A DNA stretch of 26,497 nucleotides from IMG/VR virus record IMGVR_UViG_3300025070_000191, positions 1 to 26,497 of that record; one strand, given 5' to 3'. Below are positions 1 through 23,534 of this stretch, one piece after another. The notes beneath the pieces are model-generated. The model ran no database searches. It was not told the DNA's origin and saw only the letters and a list, made by a program, of their open reading frames with translations. Source of the DNA: a virus. Each line of letters opens with the position of its first letter. The first letter of the stretch is position 1. A program made the position numbers and the translations under genes.

Positions 1-18
1 ATACGATTTATTAAAATC

Positions 19-53
19 AAAAACGCCAGTAATTAATTTTACTGGCGTTTTTT
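19..53 (-). terminator. Bidirectional intrinsic terminator ending the late gene block
   Basis: Bases 19-32 and 39-52 form a perfect 14-bp inverted repeat with core ACGCCAGTAA / TTACTGGCGT and a 6-base loop. The stem has a run of A on its left flank and a run of T on its right flank. On the minus strand the hairpin is followed by TTTTTGATTTTAA. On the plus strand it ends in TTTTTT. It lies 28 bases past the stop codon of the last minus-strand gene, so it should end the late transcript. The symmetry means it could also stop plus-strand transcription arriving from the left, outside the window. Confidence 0.9.
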
Positions 54-9362: not shown

Positions 9363-11705
9363 TTATTTCGAGAACTTGTTGTAGTATTTAGTTAAAGATG
9401 TTCCTAGTTCGTCTGATGGGTTTGCTTCTCCTTTTGATTCTAACCACTTCTTCATTCCTTCTTTGCCACCTAAGTGAGCTACAGCTCTTAATCCGTTTCT
9501 GTCATACCCTTCTGCTAATTTACCTAGCTGGTCTATGTATCTGTCTATATCCCCAATATGCCAAAGTCCAACCTTTGATTGTAGGTTTGGATTTTTTTGA
9601 AACTCATCTAAATCAAATGAAGCTCCAGTAGCATTTTTATAATCACTTAATCTCGACTCACCAAACTGTAATTCTCCAACATATCTCTCTCCAGATTTAT
9701 TTACTCTTGAAGCTGTTGTATCATTAGACGATTCGCTTTGTTTTAATTTATTGTAAAATGATAACAAATCTAAAGTGGGCTTTCCACCTTCACCACCTTC
9801 TTGCTTCTTAGGTTGACTAATAAATTGCTTGTATGAAGGACTCATTAAGATAGCACCTCTCATATTTCTTTCAAACACATCCTTCCAACCATCTTTTTCT
9901 AAGTCAATTTCAACTTCTTGTCCGTTAGGCTTTGTCATTAGAATTACATCAGAACCAATACTAGTTTCTTCTAATCCAATTCCTAACTGAGACATCTTTT
10001 TTAAGTAGTCATCTGACAATGAATCCATAAAAGTTTCTTCTGATATGTTCTCTTTGAAGTTCTTTACTGGGTCAGTTAAGTCTGAAACAATAGGAGGCAT
10101 TTCTATTTTTTCTTTTGGTTCAATTACCCCTTTTACTCCAGCACCAAATAGTCTTAGTAGTTTGTTTTCAGCATCAGCGCCATCTCTTAAATCAATTTTA
10201 AAATCGTTAAGTGGCTGCATTTCCTTATCTTTTAGTTTGTCGTAGACAACTAAACTATATGGGTCAGTAACATTACCTTCTTTGTCTGTTTCTGGTTTAA
10301 TAGAATATCCATTTATTCCATCCAACATAGAGTAGTTTATCTGTTCGCCTTTCCCTGAATTAATTGTTTCTGAAGCTAAACGAACAAAATCAGTAATGAT
10401 ATTAGCTTCTTCACTTCTAGGTCTTGGTTGCATATACTGAGGAGCTGTCTTTGTTGTTTCAATAGGGTTATTTAATGCACCAGTTCTTTTTAGTGCATCA
10501 TCCAACCCTATTTTCTGAACAGCATTTATCACATCGTCACTATATCCAGTTTTACCAAACTTTTCGTAGTTTCTATTAGCTAACTCGTCTTCTAATATTA
10601 ATATTTCTTCCCCACGCTTCACATTTCCATTTTCATCCCTACCTTCTACTGGCGGGTGAGCAAAATAAGTTTTTCCGTCAATCTCAACTTCTTTGGAGTT
10701 AGTTCTAACGTAATCATAAACCTCAGACCCCTTAAAGCCAAGCAAAGTATTAACCCTTGCGTTTGTTGATGTTTGAAGCATTGCTGATGCAGCATCTATG
10801 TCAATAGCTCTTTTGTTGGCTATAACTGGAACCTTCCCATAACCCTTTATTGACTCAGACTTCATATATGTCCCACAGTCCTTAACGTATTCGTCAGTGA
10901 AGTTACCATCTCTACCTAAAACACCTTCCTCTTTAAGAGACTCTGTAATACTTGGTATTCCTTCCGCATCACCACCCATTATTCCTGGTATAGTAGAAAA
11001 TACGCCATTGTTGTATGGACTGGCTCCTGAAGCTAGGGTCTGAGAAAGTAAGGTCTTTGAAGATATTGTGTATGAATCTCCCTCTATTCCTTCTGCTTTA
11101 TTTAATTCTTCTATTGCCTTACCTTCAGCAATATACAATACATCTCCATCAACAATTTCGTATCTAAGTTTTGCGTCTATATTGTTGTTTGCCTTTTGAG
11201 CTTCCATAACAACTTGAAAGCGAGGGTCAATATTTGCACTTACAGCACCTGCGATACCATCCATACCATTTTCAAGAATAGCCTTGTCATATGCGTCAAA
11301 AATTTCAGAAGTAGCCCCAAGTTGTTGTTCTAACCCAACACTCAAAAACATTTCAGTAGAATTTATAAAAGCCTGGTCATCCCCCATTCCATCATAATAA
11401 CTTGATGCAGCATTGAACCTCATCTTAGCTTGAGCTAATTTATCGACAGTTGTTTGAGTTCCTGAAATAAGACTTTGGTAGTCTACATTATTTTTAACAG
11501 CAATCTTGGCTAAGTTTTTGTCAATATCTGATTCATATTGACTTATTTTCTTTCTTAACTCAAAGTTCTTCTCTCTGTTTTTCTTGGCTACTTCAGCATA
11601 GTTAACAGTGGTTTGGGCGATACTTTGCTCTACATCTTTAACGTAGTCAATAAACGCATCCCCTAGTTTTGTATCTACTACTAATCTTGGATTTCTATAA
11701 CTCAT
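9363..11705 (-). CDS. Internal virion protein with C-terminal lytic transglycosylase-like domain
   Basis: The protein has 780 residues. The first 110 or so are charged and helical (ANTTVNYAEVAKKNREK-like heptads), followed by a long mixed region without recognised domains. From about residue 650 the sequence resembles a lysozyme or soluble lytic transglycosylase fold: QSESSNDTTASRVNKSG, then YVGELQFGESRLSDY, with Glu658 as the likely catalytic acid and GELQFG in place of the usual Gly-x-x-Gln core. A later AVAHLGGKEGMKKWL segment fits the rest of such a domain. Injected proteins of podoviruses, such as T7 gp16, carry a comparable domain to open the peptidoglycan during entry. The neighbours, an Ala/Gln-rich protein upstream and the giant ejection protein 6 bases downstream, fit the same role. 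The start is supported by tight spacing to the upstream stop (10 bases). Confidence 0.75.
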   Translation of the reverse strand: MSYRNPRLVVDTKLGDAFIDYVKDVEQSIAQTTVNYAEVAKKNREKNFELRKKISQYESDIDKNLAKIAVKNNVDYQSLISGTQTTVDKLAQAKMRFNAASSYYDGMGDDQAFINSTEMFLSVGLEQQLGATSEIFDAYDKAILENGMDGIAGAVSANIDPRFQVVMEAQKANNNIDAKLRYEIVDGDVLYIAEGKAIEELNKAEGIEGDSYTISSKTLLSQTLASGASPYNNGVFSTIPGIMGGDAEGIPSITESLKEEGVLGRDGNFTDEYVKDCGTYMKSESIKGYGKVPVIANKRAIDIDAASAMLQTSTNARVNTLLGFKGSEVYDYVRTNSKEVEIDGKTYFAHPPVEGRDENGNVKRGEEILILEDELANRNYEKFGKTGYSDDVINAVQKIGLDDALKRTGALNNPIETTKTAPQYMQPRPRSEEANIITDFVRLASETINSGKGEQINYSMLDGINGYSIKPETDKEGNVTDPYSLVVYDKLKDKEMQPLNDFKIDLRDGADAENKLLRLFGAGVKGVIEPKEKIEMPPIVSDLTDPVKNFKENISEETFMDSLSDDYLKKMSQLGIGLEETSIGSDVILMTKPNGQEVEIDLEKDGWKDVFERNMRGAILMSPSYKQFISQPKKQEGGEGGKPTLDLLSFYNKLKQSESSNDTTASRVNKSGERYVGELQFGESRLSDYKNATGASFDLDEFQKNPNLQSKVGLWHIGDIDRYIDQLGKLAEGYDRNGLRAVAHLGGKEGMKKWLESKGEANPSDELGTSLTKYYNKFSK

Positions 11706-18831: not shown

Positions 18832-19887
18832 TTAGCTTTTTTCGTTTATCTCATTTCTTTGTACTTGACTGGCAGCAACTTGAATTACTTGTGGGTCTTT
18901 TACAACAACTCCGAAGTAAAACAACACTCGTAGTATAAATTCTGTTTGCTCCGATACGTCTAATTCTATTTGAGTTGAGCCGTATGTGCTATTATCATAG
19001 AAGTCTGTACTTAAAAGTGTTATTTGTAAATCATCTGTTCCATTAAGAACACTAGCAGACACAGTAATTACATTACCTGCTGTATATAAATTATTTCCTC
19101 CATCTATAACATTGACAGATGTAGGAGAACCTCCTGTAATTACAACCTCTAATTGAAGCCCTGTTCCAGCAGTTAACCCTCCAGACCATCCAGGAGTAAC
19201 ATCAACAGTTCCTGCATAAGTTGCGTCAGTGTAATCTTCACTATTTTGCGATATACTATTATTTAATGTATTGTCACCTATATTTATGCTTCCTGGAATA
19301 TACGGGTTAGAGTCGTACACATATTGACCAACAGAACCAACGGAATATCCCCATCTAGGGTCTTTTGGTTTTCTTAAAAAATTTACACCTACATCACTTG
19401 TAATGCTATCAGGCTTTACAAATAGCTTTTCATTCTCAAACAAGTAAGTTGGAAAAGATTCTGTAGATTTAGTTAAAGGAGATTTTTGAATGTTGTAGAA
19501 ATCCATTCTTTGCAGTCTCTGCAATTCAGTTGTATCGTTATATACAACAGTACCTAACCGATAAAACTCCACCGTGTCACCGTATATGTCGGTTGTTGGT
19601 AGAGTAAAGTAAGGGTTTGTTGGTACGGTCGCCGCATCATATGTAGCTGTACCGAATGTCTTGAATATGGCAAGCCTTTCATCAATATTAGAAACTCTGT
19701 CAGCGTAATCTGTGTCAGACTGAGGTACTCTTAACTGCTGATTTAAGTCATCACTGTACTGCTCAAATACTTCTAGTTGTACTTGGGCAGAAATTTTGTT
19801 AAACTCATCAGGAGTAACATACCCTCGCTCTTCTTTATTAAGTATCAGTAATACAGTCTTATATACCGTATTTACATTTATTGCCAT
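18832..19887 (-). CDS. Head completion / ring protein with inserted Gly-rich beta module
   Basis: The protein has 351 residues. The N-terminus reads INVNTVYKTVLLILNKEERG then YVTPDEFNKISAQVQLEVFE, a helical start I recall from head-completion or ring proteins next to the tubular protein in Bacteroidota and aquatic podoviruses. A beta-rich middle follows, then an Asn-, Gly- and Thr-rich region at about 215-300. Within it LQLEVVITGGSPTSVNVIDG and YTAGNVITVS look like a common phage surface beta module. The last 45 residues return to the helical core (TEFILRVLFYFGVVVKDPQV). The gene starts 15 bases after a strong RNA hairpin in a 72-base gap, so translation may be affected by that structure. Confidence 0.65.
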   Translation of the reverse strand: MAINVNTVYKTVLLILNKEERGYVTPDEFNKISAQVQLEVFEQYSDDLNQQLRVPQSDTDYADRVSNIDERLAIFKTFGTATYDAATVPTNPYFTLPTTDIYGDTVEFYRLGTVVYNDTTELQRLQRMDFYNIQKSPLTKSTESFPTYLFENEKLFVKPDSITSDVGVNFLRKPKDPRWGYSVGSVGQYVYDSNPYIPGSINIGDNTLNNSISQNSEDYTDATYAGTVDVTPGWSGGLTAGTGLQLEVVITGGSPTSVNVIDGGNNLYTAGNVITVSASVLNGTDDLQITLLSTDFYDNSTYGSTQIELDVSEQTEFILRVLFYFGVVVKDPQVIQVAASQVQRNEINEKS

Positions 19888-19902
19888 ATTAATATTTTGT
19901 TT

Positions 19903-19949
19903 TATTTATAAGGGTAGACCAACAATTAAGTTAGCCTACCCTATAAATA
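19903..19949 (-). promoter_or_regulatory. Strong sense-strand RNA hairpin between capsid-proximal and ring genes
   Basis: In the minus-strand RNA the arms are TATTTATA, GGGTAG and GCTAAC, then loop TTAATT, then GTTGGT, CTACCC, a single bulged T and TATAAATA. All 20 pairs form if two G.U wobbles are allowed. On the plus strand those two pairs become A.C mismatches, so the structure is favoured in the sense RNA. It starts 10 bases after the upstream stop and ends 15 bases before the next ATG. The following bases are A-rich, so it is not a typical terminator. It may be a processing, stabilising or translation-control element. Confidence 0.7.
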
Positions 19950-19959
19950 TAGTTACATA

Positions 19960-20727
19960 TTAAGAGAATTTTTTCTCTATACTTTTGTATACTGCCATAC
20001 CTTCGTCAGTCTTAAACCAACTAGCTAATGCTGAGTATGGATGTTCGTCAAATGGTACTTCCATTAGCTTCTTGCCATTAGCAGCCCACTTGAATGTTTT
20101 TTGGTCAGGAGACAATTTGATAATGTTTGCCTCTGCTGCTCTAATACCAAAGCTTCTAAGCTCTACATTCTCATCGTGTGCAAGACTTATAAACAACGCT
20201 GGGTTGCTCTTAGCGAGTAACATCAAGTCTCTCTTAAGTTCCTTGCTTGTCATTTTAGTTACAGAACTTCCAAGTTCAGTTCTTAGTATTGCTTCTGCGT
20301 GGTCTAAGTCTAATTGTTGTGCTAAGTTTAACGCTTCAATTTCAAGTTCAATATCCTCTAACTGATTAACCGCTTCAGCAACTTGGTCTTGCTCTGCGTA
20401 CAGTATATCTTTTTGAGGGTGATATAATGATAAAAGCTTCTGTAAACTTTGTTTTGACTTTGGAATCATTAACACTCCGTTTTTAAACATAATATGAGCC
20501 AATGTAGCAGGCCCTTTCTGCTCATCAACAAATGGAGACACTTGGTTTGTTGCATACCTAAGCTCTCTTTCGTAACCTAACTCCTCATCAAAATACATCA
20601 AAGGATGTCTTTGTGAATGTTTACTTGCTAATGTAAATGTCAATGGTGACATTCCGTTTTTTAAATAGTATCGTCTATCTTTAATTTCCCACTTTGCTGT
20701 GGCTTTTTCTTTTACTTTTGTAGCCAT
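19960..20727 (-). CDS. Unknown protein next to the capsid gene, conserved-looking
   Basis: This 255-residue protein is soluble, with no membrane segment or signal peptide. The N-terminal half holds RRYYLKNGMSPLTFTLASKH, ELRYATNQVSPFVDEQKG, then GVLMIPKSKQSLQKLLSLYHP. The middle is an acidic helix (EDIELEIEALNLAQQLDLDH) and the C-terminal half is helical. I recall similar sequences in uncultured marine phages but no assigned function. The position just after the major capsid gene, and its isolation between two hairpins, suggest different expression from its neighbours. Candidate roles are a capsid accessory (decoration) protein or a head-assembly factor. The A/T-only leader before ATG is TTATTAAATTTTATTATATT. 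Confidence 0.7.
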   Translation of the reverse strand: MATKVKEKATAKWEIKDRRYYLKNGMSPLTFTLASKHSQRHPLMYFDEELGYERELRYATNQVSPFVDEQKGPATLAHIMFKNGVLMIPKSKQSLQKLLSLYHPQKDILYAEQDQVAEAVNQLEDIELEIEALNLAQQLDLDHAEAILRTELGSSVTKMTSKELKRDLMLLAKSNPALFISLAHDENVELRSFGIRAAEANIIKLSPDQKTFKWAANGKKLMEVPFDEHPYSALASWFKTDEGMAVYKSIEKKFS

Positions 20728-20756
20728 AATATAATAAAATTTAATAATAAATAAGA

Positions 20757-20796
20757 GTAATAGTTACCCCCATCTAAAAGACGAGGGTAACATTAC
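20757..20796 (-). promoter_or_regulatory. Strong sense-strand RNA hairpin after the major capsid gene
   Basis: In the minus-strand RNA the arms are GTAAT, GTTACCC, T and CGTCT, then loop TTT, then AGATG, G, GGGTAAC, a single bulged T and ATTAC. This gives 18 pairs, two of them G.U wobbles that become A.C mismatches on the plus strand. It begins 15 bases after the capsid stop codon. The next bases (TCTTATTTATTATT) are T-rich but interrupted, so it might be a weak terminator. It may also be an attenuator or a 3'-end stabiliser that keeps capsid mRNA high relative to downstream genes. Confidence 0.7.
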
Positions 20797-20811
20797 AATA
20801 ATTGTTTGCAA

Positions 20812-22308
20812 TTATGCAGCCGTGAACAATACGAAATTGTTAGCAGCTTGAGTAACTAAACATCTTTCAGATAAGAAGTTTACAGTCATTGCATCTAAAT
20901 CAGAAGTGTAAGCACCACCTACAGAACCAGTAATCCAAGACTTCATTCTTCTGTCGTCAGCTTCTGAAGCTCTGTAACGTACGTGCAAGAATGGTCGTCT
21001 GATGTTAGTACCTAACATTTGGTCGTATACTGTGCTTGTTCCAGCAGGAACTAATACGCCTTCAATATTGTCAACTAAACCACGAGTTGTAGCATCGTTT
21101 AAGTATTTCCAGTCAGTCTTATAGAAGTCGTAAGAACCTCTTCTGAAACCGTCAAATCCTAAGTTTAATGCCATTTCTTCAGAGTTTTCAAATACACCGT
21201 AAGATGTACCACCTGCTCCGTAAGAATTTTGTGCAGCTAACATATCATCAAAATCCAAAGAAATATCTCTGTTTAAGAATAACATATTCTCTTCAATAGC
21301 TCCTTGCTTATCAAGATTTTGTAGAATTGTATCAAAGTCACCTAAAGCACTTCGTGTTCCAGCACCACTTGTTCCAGTTCCATTTGCATAGTTTTGATAT
21401 ACATTACCTCTTTCAGTAATAGCAGCAAAAAGACCTTCTGTACCAGCAGTATTAATTGTCGCACCATTTACTTCATCGTTATTTAATCCATTAACAACAA
21501 CCCCAGAGCCAGCAGCAGCAAGTTCACCTTCAACTACAGCCATTTCTAAGTAATCTTGGAAACGTAATCTTGTCTCTCCTTCAGACTTCAAATACCATAA
21601 GTATCCTGATGTTCCATCTTCAGCAGCAACTTCAACCCATCCAATTTGTGCAGCATCAGAACCACTAATTCTATAGTTGTCTTTGATGATGATTGGCTTG
21701 TTGTTAAACTGTGTAAATGAAGCTTCCAAAGAACCTTGCATTCCTAATTGACCTTTAGCAAATTCAGAACCGTAAACAAATAAATTTACCTGTCCGTCAG
21801 TAATAGTACTTAAAGTAGGAGTCGTATAAGATAATACTGTAATTTGATTATCTGCTGGTACATCAGATACATAACACTTTAATGTAATTAAACCAGTAGC
21901 AGCATCAGCAACAACAACAGTGTTACCTTTTCTTATAGAATGTTTTCCACCTTCTAAGTGTCCAGCACCAAACTCAATAGTTGAACCAGTAGCAGTAGCA
22001 GCACCACTCAATGTTACTGTAAGGTCTCCAGCACCAGCTTCGTATCCAATGTGTAATCTGTTTTGCTCAGACCATACAACTTGGTCAGAAGTCATTGGCA
22101 TTTCAGCACCTACCATTCTTAAGAATCCTGACAAGGTTCTGTTTCCGTATCGCTCTACCTCAGCTTCATAAAGCTCTGGTAAGTATTGTTGTGCAAAGTC
22201 ATTATTACCATCTGTAAAACTTAGATAGTTATCAGCCAACGCTGTTTTCGATGGCATAGGTTTTAGGTTAAATACACCTAAAGGGTCGTTTGTTCCAAAT
22301 TGTCCCAT
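20812..22308 (-). CDS. Major capsid protein, crAss-like HK97-fold type
   Basis: The protein has 498 residues. It starts GQFGTNDPLGVFNLKPMPSK, then has DFAQQYLPELYEAEVERYGN and TLSGFLRMVGAEMPMTSDQV, an N-terminal arm I recognise from crAss-like major capsid proteins. The middle has a beta-rich Gly/Ala/Thr region at about 95-180, which could be an inserted or extended domain. KPIIIKDNYRISGSDAAQIG and LWYLKSEGETRLRFQDYLEM follow, and the C-terminal part is typical of an HK97-like shell protein. It lies 6 bases after the scaffold-like gene, the usual order. Sampled lines have somewhat higher G+C than the tail genes, which may reflect codon selection for high expression. No separate protease gene is visible in this window. 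Confidence 0.85.
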   Translation of the reverse strand: MGQFGTNDPLGVFNLKPMPSKTALADNYLSFTDGNNDFAQQYLPELYEAEVERYGNRTLSGFLRMVGAEMPMTSDQVVWSEQNRLHIGYEAGAGDLTVTLSGAATATGSTIEFGAGHLEGGKHSIRKGNTVVVADAATGLITLKCYVSDVPADNQITVLSYTTPTLSTITDGQVNLFVYGSEFAKGQLGMQGSLEASFTQFNNKPIIIKDNYRISGSDAAQIGWVEVAAEDGTSGYLWYLKSEGETRLRFQDYLEMAVVEGELAAAGSGVVVNGLNNDEVNGATINTAGTEGLFAAITERGNVYQNYANGTGTSGAGTRSALGDFDTILQNLDKQGAIEENMLFLNRDISLDFDDMLAAQNSYGAGGTSYGVFENSEEMALNLGFDGFRRGSYDFYKTDWKYLNDATTRGLVDNIEGVLVPAGTSTVYDQMLGTNIRRPFLHVRYRASEADDRRMKSWITGSVGGAYTSDLDAMTVNFLSERCLVTQAANNFVLFTAA

Positions 22309-22314
22309 TTCTTT

Positions 22315-23502
22315 TTAATTTTTAAAGTTTGTTTTTTTAATTTTTAGTTTTGAAGAGTCCACTCCGCTTATAGACTTGACTCTAATCCCGTTTACAAACA
22401 CGCTATCGCCAGCAGTCTGTCTTGGTTCGTCTGATAGGTTCTTAGAACCATTAACGACTTCCTTAACAGCATCGGCTTTACCTTGCTCATAAAAGTGACT
22501 TGCAATCTTGTCTACGTTAGACGCAGCATACATCGCCTTATGGTAGCCTTTGTGGTCTGAAACCTCTCCATTTTCATTCAGGAACTTCCCGATTATGTTA
22601 GAAACATCAGATTGTTTTTCAGCAAGACTTGTTGGATTATTAACACCATACCTGAATTTTTTGTCACCAACCTCGAAATCAAAACCTTTGAAGTCATTGT
22701 TGAACATTTCAGACGTAGCTTTTTTAAACCTGTCGTGCTTTTGGCTATTTAAGCTCTTCTCTTCGTTGTATCGGTTAAAGAACTCCATTGCTTTTTGTTG
22801 CTCTTGGGTTACGCCTGGTCTTAACTTAATCTCATCGTAATATTTACCCTTCAAGTCTTCTAAAAAGTCTTTGGCTTCTTGAACCTCTTCTTTAAACGCA
22901 AGCTTTTTCTTGCGTATATCTCTTTCTTCATCTAAGTCTTCGTCATACGAAAAATTATCTTCTAAAAGGAAATTAATCTCGTCATCATTAAGATGCGGTT
23001 TACTTTTTCTATAATACTCTTTTAGCAGTGTATCGTTATCTACACTACTGTAATCAGCGTTTAATCTAACATAATCCTCTACAGTCCCACCTGTATCCTC
23101 CATAAAAGAAACTAGCTTCTCTACATTCTCAGGTAGTGGCTTTCCAGAAACACGCTCATCTCTAATTGCCTCTTGAGCTTCTTTAGATACAGCCTCTACA
23201 TTCTCTTCTGTTACTTCTTGGATAGTGATGACCCCTTCATCTTGAACGGTGTCTTCCCCTGATGGTACTTCTGTATCCACTTCTTGTACAACTTCGGTTG
23301 GTTTATCTGCAACCACTGTTGTTGTTTCTTGCTTTTTATTGGCATCTTCTTTGTTTAAGTTAACCTTAGTTACTTCTTCTTCAACTTTTTTACTAGCAGA
23401 TAAGTCTACTTTAGTTGTTTCGTTTTTCTTTCCAAGGTTTTTCATCTTAGGCTTACTTTTTATTTTAAAGTCACCTTCTTGCTTTACTTCTTTTTCTGAC
23501 AT
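22315..23502 (-). CDS. Scaffold-like protein between portal and capsid genes
   Basis: The protein has 395 residues. The first 120 or so are low-complexity, rich in Lys, Glu, Val, Thr and Asp (for example KVEEEVTKVNLNKEDANKKQ). The middle is charged and helical (DEERDIRKKKLAFKEEVQEA) and likely coiled coil. The C-terminal third is more ordered (FRYGVNNPTSLAEKQSDV, then VFVNGIRVKSISGVDSSKLK) and ends in a basic tail. Position between portal and major capsid genes, acidity and helicity are the usual marks of a scaffolding protein that shapes the procapsid. No motif proves this. The start follows a 32-base AT-rich leader, one of only three gaps above 15 bases. Confidence 0.65.
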   Translation of the reverse strand: MSEKEVKQEGDFKIKSKPKMKNLGKKNETTKVDLSASKKVEEEVTKVNLNKEDANKKQETTTVVADKPTEVVQEVDTEVPSGEDTVQDEGVITIQEVTEENVEAVSKEAQEAIRDERVSGKPLPENVEKLVSFMEDTGGTVEDYVRLNADYSSVDNDTLLKEYYRKSKPHLNDDEINFLLEDNFSYDEDLDEERDIRKKKLAFKEEVQEAKDFLEDLKGKYYDEIKLRPGVTQEQQKAMEFFNRYNEEKSLNSQKHDRFKKATSEMFNNDFKGFDFEVGDKKFRYGVNNPTSLAEKQSDVSNIIGKFLNENGEVSDHKGYHKAMYAASNVDKIASHFYEQGKADAVKEVVNGSKNLSDEPRQTAGDSVFVNGIRVKSISGVDSSKLKIKKTNFKN

Positions 23503-23534
23503 AATATAATATAATATAAATTAAAAAATTCTAT
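23503..23534 (-). promoter_or_regulatory. AT-rich leader before the scaffold-like gene
   Basis: On the minus strand the leader is AGAATTTTTTAATTTATATT followed by ATATTATATT and ATG. It contains no Shine-Dalgarno sequence. Similar TATATTATG or AATATAATATG ends precede the genes starting at 20727 and 17883. This fits unstructured A/T-rich ribosome entry as described for Bacteroidota. A promoter is possible but no TAnnTTTG element is clear. Confidence 0.35.

Follow-up and report, generated by a model that had tools for sequence, protein, structure and literature searches.

In phage T7, the processing sites for RNase III are long-stem intergenic hairpins that lack a U-tract. T7 and LUZ100 also share a local promoter and a terminator immediately downstream of the capsid gene (PMC10134795). 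In Bacteroidota, TAnnTTTG is a known promoter element (PMC6847099), and in crAss001 the auxiliary capsid protein gp36 is present in a copy number equal to that of the capsid protein (PMC10172136). Here we describe two hairpins that flank the gene next to the major capsid gene in a marine flavobacterial phage. In the paper library searched, no published map of transcript ends turned up for such phages.

The window, the whole stretch of 26,497 nt that was analyzed, is a 26.5 kb virus fragment from a marine flavobacterial phage. Capsid protein identity is 50% with ctfjg026, 48% with Maribacter phage Panino, 43% with Elemovirus phages and 38% with Callevirus phages. The minus strand carries all late genes, starting with terminase and portal, followed by the 395-residue gene, the capsid gene, the 255-residue gene, the 351-residue ring-position gene and further genes (Table 1). 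The 395-residue gene, for which a search returned no family match, would be the first gene of the capsid unit. The hairpin that ends the late block is near-perfect, has a U-tract, and is terminator-like when read on either strand.

Table 1. Positions of the hairpins, genes and start motifs in the window, and of sigma factor genes in related contigs.
Feature	Position	Strand	Basis
U-tract hairpin ending the late block; internal yardstick for a full terminator	18..53		hairpin scan, terminator score
351-residue ring-position virion gene, first downstream of hairpin B	18832..19887	-	phrog_14543
Hairpin B, long stem without U-tract, behind the 255-residue gene	19903..19949	-	folding, conservation, pair counts
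255-residue gene between hairpins A and B	19960..20727	-	phrog_34748
AT-rich motif immediately before the start of the 255-residue gene; putative promoter or leader	20728..20747	-	motif scan
Hairpin A, terminator-like, behind the major capsid gene, with interrupted U-rich tail (UCUUAUUUAUUAUU)	20757..20796	-	folding, conservation, paired changes, terminator score 4.5
Major capsid gene	20812..22308	-	phrog_13704; named major capsid protein in Calle_1
395-residue gene, scaffold position	22315..23502	-	position only
AT-rich motif immediately before the start of the 395-residue gene; putative promoter or leader	23503..23522	-	motif scan
Sigma factor sites	L173:2812-3564; L176:5750-6493	minus	phrog_351

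A preliminary description of this DNA had placed a strong hairpin just after a stop codon in each of the two longest intergenic gaps of the block, and both the gap lengths and the folding agree with it. Gap A, behind the capsid gene, is 84 nt long (20728-20811), and gap B, behind the 255-residue gene, is 72 nt (19888-19959). Hairpin A (GUAAUGUUACCCUCGUCUUUUAGAUGGGGGUAACUAUUAC) starts 15 nt after the stop codon and has a stem of 18 pairs with a folding energy of -22.0 kcal/mol (z -7.5); hairpin B (UAUUUAUAGGGUAGGCUAACUUAAUUGUUGGUCUACCCUUAUAAAUA) starts 10 nt after the stop codon, has 20 pairs and -24.8 kcal/mol (z -7.9), and ends 15 nt before the start codon of the ring-position gene. For both, 0/200 shuffled sequences folded equally well. 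As described, the two hairpins bracket the 255-residue gene and set it apart from the capsid gene and the ring gene. They rank second and third among the minus-strand hairpins of the whole window, and no Rfam family matched the window at the gathering score. The sequences of A and B show no resemblance to each other, so that they form a pair in position and class only. Each has the G+C-rich core, the AT-rich outer stem and the bulged U on the 3' arm that had been pointed out, as well as two G.U pairs that become A.C on the plus strand. The bulge, however, is not conserved: it is absent or located elsewhere in the alignments of relatives, and a common "bulged U" design was rejected. The bulge that A and B have in common looks coincidental. 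(The top-ranked hairpin of the window, at 10460-10512 on the minus strand, lies within a 780-residue ORF; it has a 10 bp / 2x2 loop / 10 bp architecture with -25.3 kcal/mol and z -8.4, and no relative in the comparison set yielded an alignment of this region.)

The comparison set consisted of 160 viral-contig loci together with cultured relatives, in which the homologous gaps were found by locating the three genes; conservation was counted over distinct gaps of at most 150 nt. The gaps of related phages had been suggested as the place to check the pairing, and a hairpin was found in all of them, 103/103 for A and 102/102 for B, with a median z of -4.9 and -5.7, respectively. Sequence turnover is high, and between subclades entire hairpins are exchanged rather than individual pairs. 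Within alignable families, cells with changes on both sides of the stem exceeded those in shuffled alignments for A (13 vs. 3.6); the excess was smaller for B (9 vs. 3.2), where the count is weak taken alone because the B alignment comprises two imperfectly joined subfamilies and one slid control equaled or surpassed the pair counts on two measures.

The hairpins favor the coding strand. G.U pairs on the coding versus the opposite strand numbered 184 vs. 48 in A and 217 vs. 43 in B, and the bias persisted after clustering to 34 A and 36 B hairpins (63 vs. 9 and 78 vs. 6). The coding strand gave the better fold in 82 of the 103 A gaps and 95 of the 102 B gaps, and CUUCGG loops occurred on the coding strand in 45 gaps and on the opposite strand in none. 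The G.U and CUUCGG biases thus indicate that the hairpins act as mRNA and not as DNA palindromes, in line with the coding-sense RNA function originally claimed for them.

Some relatives have additional genes at these boundaries. In one subclade (L045, L098, L108 and others), an additional gene of ≈90-130 residues follows the capsid gene in gap A, and the hairpin, near-constant in sequence (AAGATCCCGCTTCGGCGGGGTCTTT), sits behind this extra gene. In gap B of L121, L123, L124, L128, L142 and L153, a gene of ≈50-60 residues, whose product ends in CGC.KR...LNK.FPY, precedes the ring gene; hairpin B is located upstream of it, still immediately behind the 255-residue gene. This placement around the inserted genes suggests that the hairpins track the ends of units. 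Two larger contigs, G001 and G005, have a packed late block with short gaps and contain both hairpins and the block-end terminator. One more folded gap, of 59 nt, occurs in the tail fiber region of G001, while the other folded gaps in the two contigs are long stretches that probably hold unlisted small ORFs. The left end of G001 also has, in gaps (L170:1492-1753 and L170:3631-3941), a pair of palindromes that are related and have TGTGACA arms, and the same contig carries GroEL-like and GroES-like chaperonin genes (L171:1281-2846 and L171:4751-5377).

The two hairpins differ in their terminator form. We applied a terminator score of the d'Aubenton-Carafa form, trained on E. coli. By this score the relatives had a median of 30 for A and 3.4 for B, and 99/103 gap A hairpins scored as terminators; in the window, A scored 4.5, B 5.6 and the block-end terminator 31. 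In most relatives, the tail is U-rich in gap A and A-rich in gap B. The tail of hairpin A in the window is U-rich yet interrupted (UCUUAUUUA), compared to a strong tail in most relatives. Behind the G+C core of hairpin B (UUAUAAAUA), only four of nine nucleotides are U, which makes termination at B doubtful. In a FastTree phylogeny built from the 255-residue protein, 57/85 classed members lack a U-tract at B, and the B hairpin has switched between the U-tract and U-tract-free classes at least 11 times. B stems shorten as the U count rises, and those without a U-tract are longer. In the clade of the window, B has an AT-rich outer stem that ends ≈10-17 nt upstream of the ring start codon and is followed by an A-rich leader.

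U-tract hairpins are found behind the capsid gene in Elemovirus, Callevirus, Baltivirus, Panino and ctfjg026, and also behind the homologue of the 255-residue gene in Elemovirus, Callevirus and ctfjg026; in several cultured relatives, a TAnnTTTG-type element comes next. The cultured Cellulophaga phage phi38:1 and Flavobacterium phage elemo carry the form with a U-tract. The hairpin behind the capsid gene has a U-tract in crAss001 and little of one in phi14:2. (A further U-tract hairpin lies behind gp36 of crAss001, at L190:33330-33400.) The attenuation proposed in the preliminary description is well supported for A, whose homologues are mostly U-tract terminators. A and B had been treated there as hairpins of one kind; among the relatives, the U-tract is mostly present at A and mostly absent at B, so that the two probably differ in strength or mechanism.

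The predicted fold of the 255-residue protein encoded between the hairpins (pLDDT 87, pTM 0.52) had no significant match in the PDB, and in a viral library it matched only uncharacterized phage proteins, from Gundel_1, crAss-like phages and phi14:2. In phi14:2, the gene immediately after the capsid gene encodes a product of 294 residues, the same length as the fold-matched protein. The gene at the same place in crAss001 encodes gp33, to which the virion structure paper (PMC10172136) makes no reference in its main text. In the Elemovirus and Callevirus records, the homologue of the 255-residue protein is annotated as "hypothetical" and most of its neighbors as "structural". The protein may have a non-virion role.

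We consider it probable that hairpin A is a leaky terminator that ends the capsid unit and that hairpin B is a terminator-like end to the unit of the 255-residue gene. The hairpins, their conservation and strand bias, the terminator form in relatives and the positions of the start motif are seen in the sequences; from there we infer termination, read-through and an effect on expression ratios. Hairpin A would act as an intrinsic, leaky terminator at the end of the scaffold-capsid unit, stopping part of the polymerases, so that capsid mRNA would exceed downstream mRNA, and giving the capsid mRNA a structured 3' end. The 255-residue gene would begin from its own leader or promoter motif and form a unit of its own, closed by hairpin B. 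At this place, B alternates with U-tract terminators among the relatives; in the clade of the window it has no tract and a longer AT-rich outer stem, and it looks like a modified stop without the usual tail. B is probably a weak polymerase stop, or else the mark of a processed or protected 3' end, and the ring operon would be expressed by read-through or restart.

The AT-rich motif TATATTATATT, or one close to it, occurs in the window only at the starts of the 255- and 395-residue genes. Among relatives, it abuts the scaffold-position start in 93/119 and the 255-residue start in 93/110, compared to 1/112 capsid starts and 1/108 ring starts. At the starts of these same two genes, isolated relatives have host-type TAnnTTTG elements. 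The window has no TAnnTTTG behind the hairpins and no host-type promoter in its two gaps, and TTTG is depleted in the two gaps of its clade (14 vs. 61 expected and 8 vs. 24 expected). B gaps that lack a U-tract are enriched in TATAAW (37/54 vs. 21 expected), which often falls within the 3' arm of the hairpin or just past it. A sigma-like protein of ≈250 residues (phrog_351, FliA-like) is encoded in the early arm of G001, G002 and G005; G010, G015 and G018 encode related proteins. None was found in phi38:1, elemoF or ctfjg026, and two contigs of ≈55 kb gave no match. Together, the motif and the sigma factor hint at a possible phage-specific late promoter. Since many of the contigs surveyed are fragments, the window has no early region and the two ≈55 kb contigs are matchless, we regard the connection of the motif with the sigma factor as a lead rather than a result.

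A possible but doubtful variant is that the 255-residue gene is a phage-controlled cassette, in which a phage-encoded sigma factor would read the motif that precedes only the scaffold-position and 255-residue genes, A would stop transcription, and the 3' foot (TATAAATA or similar) of the U-tract-free B would serve in addition as part of the ring operon's promoter or as a processing site. Rather unlikely, in our judgment, is RNase III-type processing at the hairpins, particularly at B, with a single late transcript being cut at each of them into mRNAs that decay separately, as happens at the RNase III sites of T7. The 20-pair stem of B without a U-tract, the greater length of U-tract-free stems in general, and the near-fixed spacing of 10-17 nt between the 3' foot and the ring start, which would leave a short unstructured 5' end, all agree with such cutting; stems of ≈20 pairs (20 in B, 18 in A) are also as expected, but are not specific to it. 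However, several relatives have short-stem U-tract terminators at the same place, the B class has switched repeatedly, and there is no conserved internal loop. We find it improbable that, without any stop or cut, the hairpins serve only to keep exonucleases off the 3' ends of the upstream mRNAs or to shape the ring gene's 5' leader: stable sense-strand stems just after stop codons, and a 3' foot of B that lies near the next start codon and has an A-rich leader behind it, would suit these roles, but they leave the U-tracts at A unexplained, and protection requires a nearby 3' end, making it a companion of termination or processing rather than a full alternative. Finally, a function as DNA palindromes (protein-binding sites, recombination junctions or mobile inverted repeats), which the intergenic inverted repeats and the variation of entire hairpins between relatives might bring to mind, would give no strand bias and was rejected as extremely improbable given the strong coding-strand preference in G.U pairs, folding energy and CUUCGG loops.

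Hairpins recur at the capsid gene boundary in highly diverse Bacteroidota phages, and for A this extends to crAss001 and phi14:2. That positions are kept while sequences turn over suggests that the hairpins are important for late gene dosage. They offer concrete sites for study in the cultured phages phi38:1, elemo and crAss001, and the interchange of U-tract and U-tract-free forms at one place provides a natural series on the role of such hairpins in Bacteroidota phages.

Compared to the terminators of Elemovirus, Callevirus, Baltivirus, Panino, ctfjg026 and crAss001, the hairpins of the window share the place behind the capsid gene, the G+C-rich stem and the coding strand. Those terminators have uninterrupted or strong U-tracts, several of them with a TAnnTTTG-type element, whereas in the window the U-tract is weak or missing and there is no such element. 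Hairpin B resembles the RNase III sites of T7 in being a long-stem intergenic hairpin without a U-tract, but relatives have terminators at the same place. The closest likeness is to the T7-like post-capsid terminator (T-phi in T7, and that of LUZ100): in both cases, a terminator-like hairpin stands right behind the major capsid gene, the capsid unit has a separate start, and capsid is split from the later tail genes. Hairpin A is most likely a leaky transcription stop, like the one found at this place in T7. T7 and LUZ100 have a single terminator there, whereas in the window another hairpin follows and sets off one further gene; the phages compared here are unrelated Bacteroidota podoviruses, and the tails of the window's hairpins are weak. 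Of the arrangements compared, the window would appear to work most like that of T7 and LUZ100, with a second hairpin added.
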